This document shows, in pieces, positions 2,317-7,899 of a stretch of 40,873 nt of DNA (position 1 is the stretch's first letter; the number at the start of each line of letters is the position of its first letter). Source of the DNA: Alphaproteobacteria bacterium (GTDB lineage: Bacteria; Pseudomonadota; Alphaproteobacteria; GCA-2731375); contig JAPYPT010000008.1 of assembly GCA_029937535.1 (NCBI GenBank), positions 1 through 40,873 on the forward strand, in the 5' to 3' direction. The notes below the pieces were generated by a model. It was not told the origin of the DNA and ran no database searches. It saw only the letters and a program-made list of their open reading frames with translations. The translations under genes and the position numbers were made by a program.

Positions 2317-3345
2317 CTATATGAGTTCTTTTTTGCGCCAGGCCTTGATGTAGGTGGCGCAATCTGGGTCTTGGCCCAGCACGACGTCGGTGGCCAGGGT
2401 AAGCCCTTTTGACGGCTCCCCTGGCGCCAGGGCCGCATTGGGGTCATTTTGCACGGGGTCCATGATGCCGCTGTCGGCGCCCGCTTCGACCGCCAGACGC
2501 AGGAACGCCTCGTTGATGTATTTGCGGGCCGGTACCCCGAAGGAAGAATTGGAGATACCGCCCGTAATGTGCATTTCCGGGCCGAAACGCCGGCGGATTT
2601 CGCGGATCGCATCCAGACAATGACGGCCGTATTCAGGGTCCACGGCAACGGGAAAAACCAGGGGATCGAGGTATATGTGCTTGGCCGGGATACCTTTTTT
2701 CAAGGCCGCTTCAATCATCAGGGTGGCATTGGCGACCCGGCCCTCGGTGCCGTCCGGCATGGCGCTCTTGCCGGCGGCGGTGACGATGACGGCGGCGCCA
2801 TGGTCATGGGCCAGATCCAGGGCGCCCGGCCGCTCCATGGACGCGGAATTCAGCATGGCTGGGCCGTTGCGCCCGTCATAGGCCGCCAAACCGGCTGTAA
2901 TCACGTCCATATCGGAGGAATCGATGGATAAAGGCCGCCTCGCCATGTCCTGGACCCTGCCCGTCAGCCACAGCATGGCCTCGATTTGTTCTTCTTTTTT
3001 CAGAGAGATCTCATCGACGTTTATATCCAGGAAATCGGCTCCCGCGGCTTCCTGCTGGCGCACGATCGCGGCGATGTAATCCAATCCCGCCTCTTCTTGC
3101 CCGAACATGGCCTGTTGCAGGGCCGCCTTGACGTGTTTGACCCGGCCTTCCTGGAAGTCCTGGGTCTCCTTGATGGCGTCGGGAAGGACCAAAAACCGGG
3201 TTTCGCCGGCGCCATCCACGTAAGAGACCGCATCGGCGCCGGTTTCGTCCGTGGTCACCCGTTTATTGCGCCGCAACAGCGCCCGGGTAGTATGCACATT
3301 TTCCCCGATGACGATGAATTCACGGTCCATGCCGTCGATTTTCAT
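2317..3345 (-). CDS. Pterin-binding methyltetrahydrofolate:corrinoid methyltransferase (MT II, MtgA/MtvA/CmuB-like)
   Basis: IGENVHTTR; GADFLDINVDE; LSIDSSDMDVI; MLNSAS; GGISNSSFGVPAR; MDPVQNDP: pterin-binding TIM-barrel methyltransferase signatures; operon context with corrinoid protein. Confidence 0.88.
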   Translation of the reverse strand: MKIDGMDREFIVIGENVHTTRALLRRNKRVTTDETGADAVSYVDGAGETRFLVLPDAIKETQDFQEGRVKHVKAALQQAMFGQEEAGLDYIAAIVRQQEAAGADFLDINVDEISLKKEEQIEAMLWLTGRVQDMARRPLSIDSSDMDVITAGLAAYDGRNGPAMLNSASMERPGALDLAHDHGAAVIVTAAGKSAMPDGTEGRVANATLMIEAALKKGIPAKHIYLDPLVFPVAVDPEYGRHCLDAIREIRRRFGPEMHITGGISNSSFGVPARKYINEAFLRLAVEAGADSGIMDPVQNDPNAALAPGEPSKGLTLATDVVLGQDPDCATYIKAWRKKELI

Positions 3346-3355
3346 AGTGATTTCC

Positions 3356-5320
3356 TCATAGCGGTTTCCTCACATTATTCGCCATGGGCTTGAAGAAGCA
3401 GGCGTCCACGAAAATATCGAAAAAATTGGCCTCGCTTTCCAGCTCCACATGCTCCGCACGGCGGACCAATTGGTCCAGATCGCGCCTTCGGCCGGTATTC
3501 AATAAAGCTTCCGAGGCGCCTTGCAGGGCCGTGTTTCCGGCCTTGACGACCCGTTCCGGCGCAATCGGCGCCAACAGCCCGATGGCCACCGCATTTTCGA
3601 CGTCTACGTGGGAGGCAAAGCCGCCCGCCAGATACAGCCGGCTGATATCATCGACGCCAACGCCGAAACGTTCCATCAGAATACGCTGCCCCGCGTTGGA
3701 TGCCGCCTTGGCCTGGGCCAGGTGGGAGATATCCTGCCCGGAAATGGTAATGCCCTGTTCGGGCGCGATGATAACCTCGGCGTTGCGCTGCCCTTTTTTC
3801 CGCGCCAAGGCCCCCTTCTCGTTCATGCGCCCGCTGCGGCGCAACACCGCCAATACATCGATCAGGCCGGAGCCGCAAAGGCCGGCGGGTACGCAATCGC
3901 CAATAGTGCGGAGCTCGAAGCCATCGCCGCTTTCCCTGACCGCCTCAATGGCGCCCTGGTAACTGGCCATGCCATGGCGCACCAGACCGCCTTCGAAAGC
4001 CGGACCGGCGGGGCAGGAGGCCACCATGAGCCGGCCCCTGCCCGCCAGCACGATCTCGGTATTGGTGCCCATGTCCACCAGCATGGTGACCTCTTCGGCG
4101 TCCGGGGACAGATCAAGGGCGAGGAGGGAGGCGGCGGCGTCCCCGCCCACATGGCTGGCAATCAACGGCAAGCCCTGCACCAGACATTTGGGATGAGCCC
4201 GGAGGCCCAATTTGCGGGCCTCCATGACAAGCGCCGTGTCCTCGCGCTCACCGGCCAGAAATGCCAGTTCCACGGGGGATTTATAGGGCCGCTGACCAAT
4301 GGGCTGGACATCGCCCTTGAAAAACAGATCCCGCATGGTGGAATTGCCGGCGACGACGATTTCGTAGATTTCCCGGCGCTTGAAGTCGAATTGCTGGCAA
4401 AGACCCTCTATTTCCCGGTTCAGGGCATTGATGATCACCTTGTGCAACTCGCCCTGGTGGGGACCGCCGTCGTAGGAAATCCGGTGCATGACGTCGCTGC
4501 CGCCAAAACGTTGCGGGTTTTCAAACGAAGCCGTGGCGATGGCGGCCCCGGATTCGAGATCGAACAGGTTCGCGGCCACGGTGGTGGTGCCCAGATCAAT
4601 GGCCAGGCCGTAAATATGGCCGCGGAATTTGTCGATCACCTGGCCGTCCCGCAGGACGTCCGTGCCCTGGCGGGTTATGGCCGGGGCCAGCGCCACGGGT
4701 TTCTCAAGGGCGCTTTGCAGAATGCGGGGGTCGCGGATCAACGGCTCGAAAGTAATTTCGGCCCCCGCATCGATGACCTCGGCCTGGCAGGCCAGACGGT
4801 AGTTTTCCGCCAAAAAGGCCTCGGCTTCCGTGCGCGGCGCCAATGCTTCGGCGCCCTTTGTCACGCTGATGATGCATTCATGGCAGTCGCCGTAGCGGCC
4901 GCAGGAAGACGCCAGGCGCAGGCCAATTTCGTCCGCGCGGTCGAACAGATTGACGTTCTCGGCCCGTTTGCCCTCCATGCCGGCGCGGCGATCTTGCCGG
5001 CGGTTTTTGCGGGCCTTAGCCGATTGCTCTCTCACCTGGGCGATTTTCTCCTTGGTTTTGCCATAGCTTTCCGGCCGGGTTTCCCAGGCACTGCGGAAAT
5101 CCAGGGTGCCGTCATGGGCGCACATGGGAACGGGGTCTGAGCCGCCGGGATTTTCGCGGTTGGCGCAACCGAACTTCGCCGTACAGACATCCTTGGCCGA
5201 GCGATAGGGACAACGCCCCTCCCCTTGCATCTGACCCTGGGCCTGCCCCAGTATTTCGCCAAAAATACCGGAAATCCGGTCCAAACGCTGTTGGTAGTCT
5301 TTTTTCGTTGGGCCGGTCAT
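3356..5320 (-). CDS. RACo-type reductive activator of corrinoid protein (2Fe-2S ferredoxin domain + ASKHA/DUF4445 domain)
   Basis: SSCGRYGDCHECI...LAC (CX5CX2CXnC 2Fe-2S), then YGLAIDLGTTTVAANLFDLESG, GNSTMRDLF, LVDMGTNTEIVL, CPAGPAFEGG, LAGGFASHV. Confidence 0.92.
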   Translation of the reverse strand: MTGPTKKDYQQRLDRISGIFGEILGQAQGQMQGEGRCPYRSAKDVCTAKFGCANRENPGGSDPVPMCAHDGTLDFRSAWETRPESYGKTKEKIAQVREQSAKARKNRRQDRRAGMEGKRAENVNLFDRADEIGLRLASSCGRYGDCHECIISVTKGAEALAPRTEAEAFLAENYRLACQAEVIDAGAEITFEPLIRDPRILQSALEKPVALAPAITRQGTDVLRDGQVIDKFRGHIYGLAIDLGTTTVAANLFDLESGAAIATASFENPQRFGGSDVMHRISYDGGPHQGELHKVIINALNREIEGLCQQFDFKRREIYEIVVAGNSTMRDLFFKGDVQPIGQRPYKSPVELAFLAGEREDTALVMEARKLGLRAHPKCLVQGLPLIASHVGGDAAASLLALDLSPDAEEVTMLVDMGTNTEIVLAGRGRLMVASCPAGPAFEGGLVRHGMASYQGAIEAVRESGDGFELRTIGDCVPAGLCGSGLIDVLAVLRRSGRMNEKGALARKKGQRNAEVIIAPEQGITISGQDISHLAQAKAASNAGQRILMERFGVGVDDISRLYLAGGFASHVDVENAVAIGLLAPIAPERVVKAGNTALQGASEALLNTGRRRDLDQLVRRAEHVELESEANFFDIFVDACFFKPMANNVRKPL

Positions 5321-6140: not shown

Positions 6141-7166
6141 TTAATGGACCGCATGCCATTCCTGCACGGCCTCGGGGATGGCGCGCAGATTGGCGATGGA
6201 GGTTTGCAGGGGGATGGCGCATTCGGGTCCGATCATCTGCACGCCCGCGTCCAAATTGGCGAAAACCTCCCGCTTGACGTCATCCGGGCCCTTGGCGAAC
6301 AGGGTTTCGGGATTGTTGATATTACCGACCAGGGCGATGCGCCCCTCGACCACGTCCATGGACTCACCGGGTTTATTTTTGGAATCGTAGTGGAACGCCG
6401 CCATGCCGGTTTCCGCGATAAAGCCCATGCGGTCCACGGTCCGGCCGCAAATATGCAGGATCAAGGGACAGGGAATGGCCTGGGCGAACTCAATATGCAG
6501 ATCCTTGAGATAGCGGTGATAATACTCGCCGCTGACCAAATCGCCCGTCGCGTGATCCGGCAAGGTCAGGGCATCGACGCCGGCCGCGATCTGGGCGCGG
6601 CCAAAATCGATGGTGACTTTTTTCAGTTTTTGCAGGACCTCAGCGGTGGCTGCGGGATCGTCGAGTGACAACAGCAGGAATTTCTCAACCCCGAAACAAT
6701 GATAGGCCAGGGACCACGGTCCCATGGTTTTGCCGATGATGGCGACATCCGGTCCAAGGTCCTCGCGCAGCAGCTTGATGGCGTCCAGCACGCATTTGGT
6801 ATCGGGATGGTCGATCAGGTCGTTGGGCACATAAATATCGTCCGGGTGCTCCCAAATCGGCTCCGACATACGCACCGTGGGCCAATTGTCCTTGCCTTCC
6901 CATTGCATCTTGCAGCCCAGGGCGGAGGATTCCTGAATGATGGAGAACACGGGCATGACCGTATCGAAACCAAGCAGGGTGTGCGCCGTGGCCGCCAAAC
7001 GGGCCATGGGTTCCGCCTGGCGGTTGGCGTCGGGAAAGGGTGCATCCACTAAATCCATCAATTCCACGGTGGCGACGGAGGTCGGGCAACAAATTGGCGT
7101 CCGGTCCACCGGCTGGCCGTTCAGGGCCGCCAATACACGTTCCCGGCTGGTCATGCTCATAGCCAA
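6141..7166 (-). CDS. URO-D superfamily corrinoid methyltransferase (MtaA/CmuA/MtvB-like)
   Basis: MTSRERVLAALNGQPVDRTPI; Zn-ligand-like LHICGRT ... GPECAIPLQTSIANLRAIPEAV typical of URO-D methyltransferases. Confidence 0.92.
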   Translation of the reverse strand: MAMSMTSRERVLAALNGQPVDRTPICCPTSVATVELMDLVDAPFPDANRQAEPMARLAATAHTLLGFDTVMPVFSIIQESSALGCKMQWEGKDNWPTVRMSEPIWEHPDDIYVPNDLIDHPDTKCVLDAIKLLREDLGPDVAIIGKTMGPWSLAYHCFGVEKFLLLSLDDPAATAEVLQKLKKVTIDFGRAQIAAGVDALTLPDHATGDLVSGEYYHRYLKDLHIEFAQAIPCPLILHICGRTVDRMGFIAETGMAAFHYDSKNKPGESMDVVEGRIALVGNINNPETLFAKGPDDVKREVFANLDAGVQMIGPECAIPLQTSIANLRAIPEAVQEWHAVH

Positions 7167-7183: not shown

Positions 7184-7825
7184 CTATTTCTGGCTGCCAG
7201 GCGCCAGCAGGACGCCCTTGGCCGCATTCATCTCGAATTCCCGCATGACGGCGCGCACATTGGGCGCCGATTGTAACAAAAGACCGACCATGGCGTGGTG
7301 ATCATGGCCGCAAGCGAAACAAAGCCGCTCGCCCACATCGTCATCCGCCTGGGCATCCGCCAGTTTGACCAGGGCATTGCGCAGGGCGGTGAGGCGCCCG
7401 CCGGCATCGCCGTCCGCCGACAGCTCATAAGCCCCCTGCCCCAATCCCTGCGCCGAGACCGTCAGCTCGGCTTTCTTGTCCCACATGGACAGCGGCGACA
7501 TTTCCGCCGCGCTGTCGGGTTTTTCCTTGCAGGCTTGCAGAAACAGCCGCCGCACGGCCACCAGATGTTCGCCGCCGCAGGGAAACCGCAGCCGATCTTC
7601 GTCCCCCGCCGGCGCCATGCCGCCGAGGGTCTGCATGGCATCGCGAATAAAGGCCAGGCGCGCCTTGATGCCGTCATAGGCGGCAAAGCTTTGCACAAGA
7701 AAGCGCCAACCGTCAGCTTCCTGCAGGGCGTAGAGGGCGATGGAGACGTCGCGGAAATACTTGTCCGTCGAAACCAGTTCGACCCGCGTTCCCAGACCGG
7801 CAAATGGGTCTTCGATGTTCACCAT
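7184..7825 (-). CDS. Uncharacterised 213-aa protein, first gene of corrinoid operon; internal duplication with C-G-x-[E/D]-H motifs
   Basis: Start MVNIEDPFAG (7825); RLAFIRDAMQ..RLRFPCGGEHLVAVRRLFLQA and RLTALRNALV..RLCFACGHDHHAMVGLLLQS are recognisable repeats. No family recognised. Confidence 0.75.
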   Translation of the reverse strand: MVNIEDPFAGLGTRVELVSTDKYFRDVSIALYALQEADGWRFLVQSFAAYDGIKARLAFIRDAMQTLGGMAPAGDEDRLRFPCGGEHLVAVRRLFLQACKEKPDSAAEMSPLSMWDKKAELTVSAQGLGQGAYELSADGDAGGRLTALRNALVKLADAQADDDVGERLCFACGHDHHAMVGLLLQSAPNVRAVMREFEMNAAKGVLLAPGSQK

Positions 7826-7888: not shown

Positions 7889-7899
7889 TGGTCAGACCA
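7889..7899. promoter_or_regulatory. Candidate FadR/GntR operator TGGTCAGACCA
   Basis: Perfect palindrome TGGTC-A-GACCA in the divergent promoter between the GntR gene and the corrinoid operon; matches the FadR-subfamily TGGTnnnACCA pattern. Confidence 0.75.

Follow-up and report, generated by a model that had tools for sequence, protein, structure and literature searches.

The orphan protein whose gene opens a corrinoid operon is linked as a partner to the URO-D superfamily methyltransferase encoded next to it, a relation that is well supported by the distribution and position of the two genes. Their one-to-one tracking raises the question of what this methyltransferase needs a helper for, given that MtaA and CmuA apparently manage without one. 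As a specific marker and a new component, the orphan gene bears on corrinoid methyl-group use in Latescibacterota, Alphaproteobacteria, Gemmatimonadota, Poribacteria and Chloroflexota; the gap that it addresses in those uncultured groups is how methylated sulfur or selenium compounds are routed.

The window, the whole stretch of 40,873 nucleotides that was analysed, is the entire contig C43 of a genome of 5.58 Mb in 534 contigs. Near relatives are MAGs that carry the label Rhodospirillaceae or Alphaproteobacteria. Its relevant features are the following.

7184-7825, minus strand: orphan protein of 213 residues starting with MVNIEDP, putative accessory factor, operon gene 1, unassigned in searches of Pfam, NCBIfam, PHROGs and PDB
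7532-7684, minus strand: repeat 1, residues 48-98 of the orphan protein, from hhalign of the halves
7265-7420, minus strand: repeat 2, residues 136-187 of the orphan protein, from hhalign of the halves
7565-7579, minus strand: motif 1, C83-G-G-E-H87, lost in L119 and L120
7298-7312, minus strand: motif 2, C172-G-H-D-H176, Cys missing from both L119 and L120, His only from L120
7187-7216, minus strand: C-terminal tail, residues 204-213, highly conserved and predicted disordered, candidate docking peptide
6141-7166, minus strand: URO-D superfamily methyltransferase of the MtaA/CmuA type (TIGR01463) with a His238-Cys240-Cys316 zinc site, aligned to 4ay7 MtaA
5350-6096, minus strand: corrinoid protein (PF02310 and PF02607)
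3356-5320, minus strand: RACo-type ATP-dependent corrinoid activase (PF14574, PF17651, PF00111)
4991-5320, minus strand: Cys-rich N-terminal domain of the RACo product, encoded separately in many other lineages
2317-3345, minus strand: methyltetrahydrofolate:corrinoid methyltransferase, MeTr (PF00809; PRK07535 187 bits, under the cut-off of 259)
7953-8696, plus strand: divergent GntR/FCD-family regulator (PF07729 and PF00392)
7889-7899, no strand assigned: TGGTCAGACCA palindrome in the divergent promoter, predicted GntR/FCD operator

Linkage of the orphan gene to the URO-D methyltransferase

The orphan gene is first in the operon and adjoins the regulator, as the earlier note had described: URO-D starts 17 nt past its end and the divergent GntR gene lies at 7953. 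The order orphan gene, URO-D, corrinoid protein, RACo and usually MeTr is conserved, and no fusion of the orphan protein to a neighbour was found in the three loci checked for it, whose reported open frames are long. Of the 23 corresponding promoters, which span MAGs labelled Alphaproteobacteria, Gemmatimonadota and Latescibacterota, 22 carry TGGTC[AT]GACCA in the stretch from regulator to orphan gene, with a background of 0.15 matches per kb. This sequence fits TNGTNNNACNA, the pattern of FCD-type GntR operators, and TGGTCAGACCA is a conserved predicted GntR-type operator ahead of the orphan-gene operon.

Orphan gene and URO-D orthologue are found in identical sets of 8 of 296 alphaproteobacterial genomes and 44 of 65 genomes of Latescibacterota, and no genome in these samples has just one partner. 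The probability of such co-occurrence by chance is about 1e-15 and 1e-17, respectively, assuming independent genomes, values that overstate the evidence because the sampled genomes are related. In 57 of the 59 loci with both genes, URO-D is co-directional and starts no more than 150 nt downstream; in the remaining two the genes are 1.0-1.5 kb apart. Since these loci came mostly through the orphan-gene search, the reverse search matters: with URO-D as query, the same 296 genomes yield exactly the 8 that carry the orphan gene. The orphan gene is also present in three of the four genomes of Chloroflexota with a URO-D orthologue; the fourth (G447) has less than 200 nt upstream of URO-D at a contig end and is uninformative on its absence. 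Outgroup URO-D proteins of 41-49% identity are without the orphan gene, and G586 has kept it though unlinked from the operon. Operon carriers come from many phyla and are mostly marine. Nearly all bear the label MAG or uncultured; a carrier strain in culture was not found, nor any match to the orphan protein in plasmids.

Co-occurrence with corrinoid genes, predicted by the earlier note, is thus perfect with URO-D in the two sampled groups. Together with near-perfect adjacency and the lack of a known family or a significant PDB fold match it strongly supports a new accessory factor of the corrinoid operon, whereas the roles suggested for that factor are not told apart. Operon neighbours can stay together for reasons besides complex formation.

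One such role is that of a partner in corrinoid reactivation or protection, a counterpart of DUF1638 that would aid RACo in converting Co(II) to Co(I) or shield Co(I) from oxygen. DUF1638 is a genetic precedent of a small second B12-reactivation factor (PMC5764234). It is present in just 5 of 20 operon genomes and never within the orphan-gene operon, and many hosts are probably aerobic, judging from their groups and habitats. However, the orphan gene tracks URO-D and not RACo, the outgroup URO-D cluster L160 has RACo and a corrinoid protein without the orphan gene, and reactivation would more readily be assigned to the Cys-rich domain that is fused to RACo or encoded beside it. We consider this role unlikely.

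The Cys-rich domain (window 4991-5320, minus strand) has about 100 amino acids with the pattern RCPY[RK]...CTAxFxC...C...DYRxAWE and is fused to the RACo N-terminus. In many lineages it is a separate gene ahead of RACo (L056:10573-10845, L058:12527-12832, L072:12505-12831, L119 about 11395-11637). It has no Pfam or PDB match and is likely a second novel component, which may serve reactivation as an Fe-S or zinc domain. At L072 (about 12505-13890) and L083 (about 12512-13874) MeTr comes directly after the stand-alone Cys-rich gene, and the ASKHA part of RACo is missing there.

Two halves, paired Cys/His motifs and a predicted fold with no significant PDB match

The minus-strand ORF yields the 213-residue product from MVNIEDP, with C83-H87 (CGGEH) and C172-H176 (CGHDH) placed as noted earlier. 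The two halves are homologous, as had been proposed: hhalign of the N-half against the C-half profile (59 sequences each) aligns residues 48-98 with 136-187 over 51 columns, with a score of 55.9 and E=5e-10. The best of 100 shuffled-column controls scores 21.2, so the duplication is not due to chance.

Among homologues covering each position in the 60-locus set, which was taken from genome contigs, C83 (59/59), H87 (60/60), C172 (59/59) and H176 (59/59) are invariant. The four soft ligands, kept in all covering members, make a two-fold CxxxH pattern resembling metal binding. Of the motif C-G-x-[E/D]-H given in the earlier note, Cys and His are borne out in this set and Gly is merely preferred; the acidic residue is not retained, with Ala as frequent as Glu at position 86 and Ala, Asp or Ser at position 175, so the motif is better written C-x3-H. 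Homologues without the Cys/His residues, which that note held to speak against its proposal, are limited to two divergent Chloroflexota cases from small genomes, L119 and L120, that came later from a wider Chloroflexota search; there are none in the 60-locus set. These two have three or four of the four residues replaced and keep the operon together with an intact URO-D zinc site. Both have Asp in place of C172, suggestive of a single ancestral loss. The Cys/His site is therefore dispensable in at least one lineage, and the joint loss of Cys from both halves fits a single interdependent site. The four residues probably form one structural or auxiliary metal site and not an invariant catalytic centre.

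The paired motifs could also belong to a metallochaperone that supplies the URO-D active site or the corrinoid protein with zinc (or cobalt). Four soft ligands invariant in nearly all homologues and strict linkage to a zinc-type enzyme agree with such a function. It is weakened by L119 and L120, in which most or all ligands are gone beside intact URO-D zinc sites, and a domain search detects no COG0523-type nucleotide-binding domain in the orphan protein. We regard metal delivery as distinctly improbable.

The earlier note recognised no family, and profile and PDB searches likewise give none. Naming at the level of PHROGs, Pfam and NCBIfam fails also for the homologues, with no match to DUF1638 (PF07796) in 57 members. 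A Pfam Erythro-docking hit (E=0.0003, under cut-off) is a single-sequence match in 1 of 57 homologues and was discarded; ankyrin-like PDB sequence matches and a phage protein match (E 0.007) are not significant. Predicted structures of the window protein and of L095 reach pLDDT 87.8 and 87.7 and pTM 0.85 and 0.82. Two strand-strand-helix units are seen in both models, and a C-x3-H turn leading into a helix comes after each unit. In a fold comparison against the PDB only, these two confident models have no match at E <= 0.001; hits to PUR-repeat and Arp2/3 folds, at E 0.09 or worse, are not significant.

Conservation is highest at residues 12-32, 81-100, 170-196 and in the tail, 204-210, which tops the segments compared with a mean of 0.84. 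In the window-protein model, pLDDT is below 50 at residues 206-213 and averages 69 at residues 21-30. The L095 model is confident at the matching loop and low at the tail, so low confidence at residues 21-30 is not general and that of the tail is common to both models. Conservation combined with low confidence, as would be expected of parts that fold on a partner, leads to the proposal of an accessory subunit.

Probable substrate class and proposed role of the orphan protein

The window URO-D passes TIGR01463 (MtaA/CmuA) with 246.3 bits over a cut-off of 235.4, and its zinc ligands H238, C240 and C316 are invariant (55/55). The corrinoid protein keeps DxHxxG with one exception, at the His, in 53 sequences. 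With the RACo-type activase, these are the features of an MtaA/CmuA-type system. In the URO-D superfamily, His-Cys-Cys marks S- or Se-methyltransferases rather than enzymes acting on O substrates (PMC10418091). Since the triad is invariant here, we infer, by analogy of its ligands, that the operon uses a methyl-sulfur or methyl-selenium compound. A methylthioribose-like kinase neighbour (TIGR01767, 51 bits versus a cut-off of 275) is too weak for naming the substrate. An enolase-superfamily gene close to cis-3-hydroxy-L-proline dehydratase (L056:12672-13772; 467.6 bits, cut-off 500) adjoins the operon in some loci, either as a substrate hint or by chance.

We propose, with even confidence for and against, that a corrinoid S-demethylase with an MtaA-like URO-D relies on the orphan protein as a dedicated, obligate accessory subunit, which docks through loop and tail and holds one zinc-type site. 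The methylated compound would bind at the URO-D zinc and its methyl group would be transferred to Co(I) of the corrinoid protein, from which MeTr would pass it to tetrahydrofolate, RACo restoring Co(I) with ATP. The orphan protein, with its two pseudo-symmetric halves, would bind URO-D and perhaps also the corrinoid protein through the conserved N-terminal loop (about residues 16-27) and the conserved, otherwise disordered C-terminal tail, and would shape or guard the active complex. C83, H87, C172 and H176 would make a single zinc-type site clamping both halves.

The motifs might instead handle the substrate, binding and passing on the thiol or selenol or the leaving group. Soft ligands beside an S/Se-type enzyme would suit this, as would the invariant charged residues E16, D116 and R144. 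Motif loss in L119 and L120 speaks against it, and fold comparisons show the orphan protein to be unlike binding proteins; we judge substrate handling very unlikely. A broader form of the accessory-subunit proposal, doubtful in our estimate, is that this unrecognised and obligatory metalloprotein subunit, whose fold would be missing from the PDB, sets apart a new and widespread class of corrinoid S-/Se-demethylases in uncultured marine and sponge-associated bacteria that also makes methionine where MetH and MetE are missing.

Related systems and the link to methionine

The operon shares with the CmuA/CmuB chloromethane system of aerobic methylotrophs an MtaA/CmuA-family methyltransferase, a corrinoid domain and an H4folate methyltransferase. 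CmuA fuses methyltransferase and corrinoid domain, whereas the orphan-gene operon has separate genes, and we know of no orphan protein of the window's kind in the CmuA system. Type 1 mlp clusters (Kountz and Balskus, PMC10418091) comprise MtaA-like URO-D proteins, a corrinoid protein and Ram/RACE. Common to both are a soluble CoM methyltransferase-type URO-D with His-Cys-Cys, the corrinoid protein and an activase. Type 1 mlp clusters are confined to obligate anaerobes, mainly Firmicutes, with at least two Mlps and no H4folate methylase (PMC10418091), whereas the orphan-gene operon has one URO-D, usually MeTr, and the orphan protein, and occurs in Alphaproteobacteria and other phyla. The type 1 set of at least one Mlp2 and at least one Mlp3 is absent, the window operon having one URO-D and the neighbourhoods listed no second one.

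MtgBCD, a split methionine synthase/glycine betaine demethylase with RamA and DUF1638 (PMC12478193, PMC5764234), resembles the operon in being a split corrinoid methyltransferase of marine bacteria, accompanied by a RACo-like activase and by a small accessory protein that is likewise uncharacterised. It differs in a methyl-donor enzyme other than URO-D and in DUF1638, which is unlike the orphan protein and missing from 15 of 20 operon genomes. The genome of the window itself has, at a separate locus, DUF1638 with corrinoid and pterin modules (G000:C338:1064-5194), possibly an Mtg-type split methyltransferase.

In some lineages the operon has MTHFR with DUF5981, PF13769 and homocysteine S-methyltransferase as neighbours, which would fit a flow of methyl groups into the metabolism of folate and methionine. 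A general role as sole methionine synthase is rejected by MetH above the family cut-off in 13 of 20 operon genomes; methionine synthesis is thus not the operon's general reason to exist. MetH above the cut-off and a MetE-type domain are both lacking in three Chloroflexota operon genomes, which may use the operon for demethylation and methionine synthesis alike, a dual use for which MtgBCD is a precedent (PMC12478193). At L095, L119 and L120, in Chloroflexota genomes of this kind, a homocysteine S-methyltransferase family gene lies just upstream of the orphan gene, a possible dual methionine synthase.
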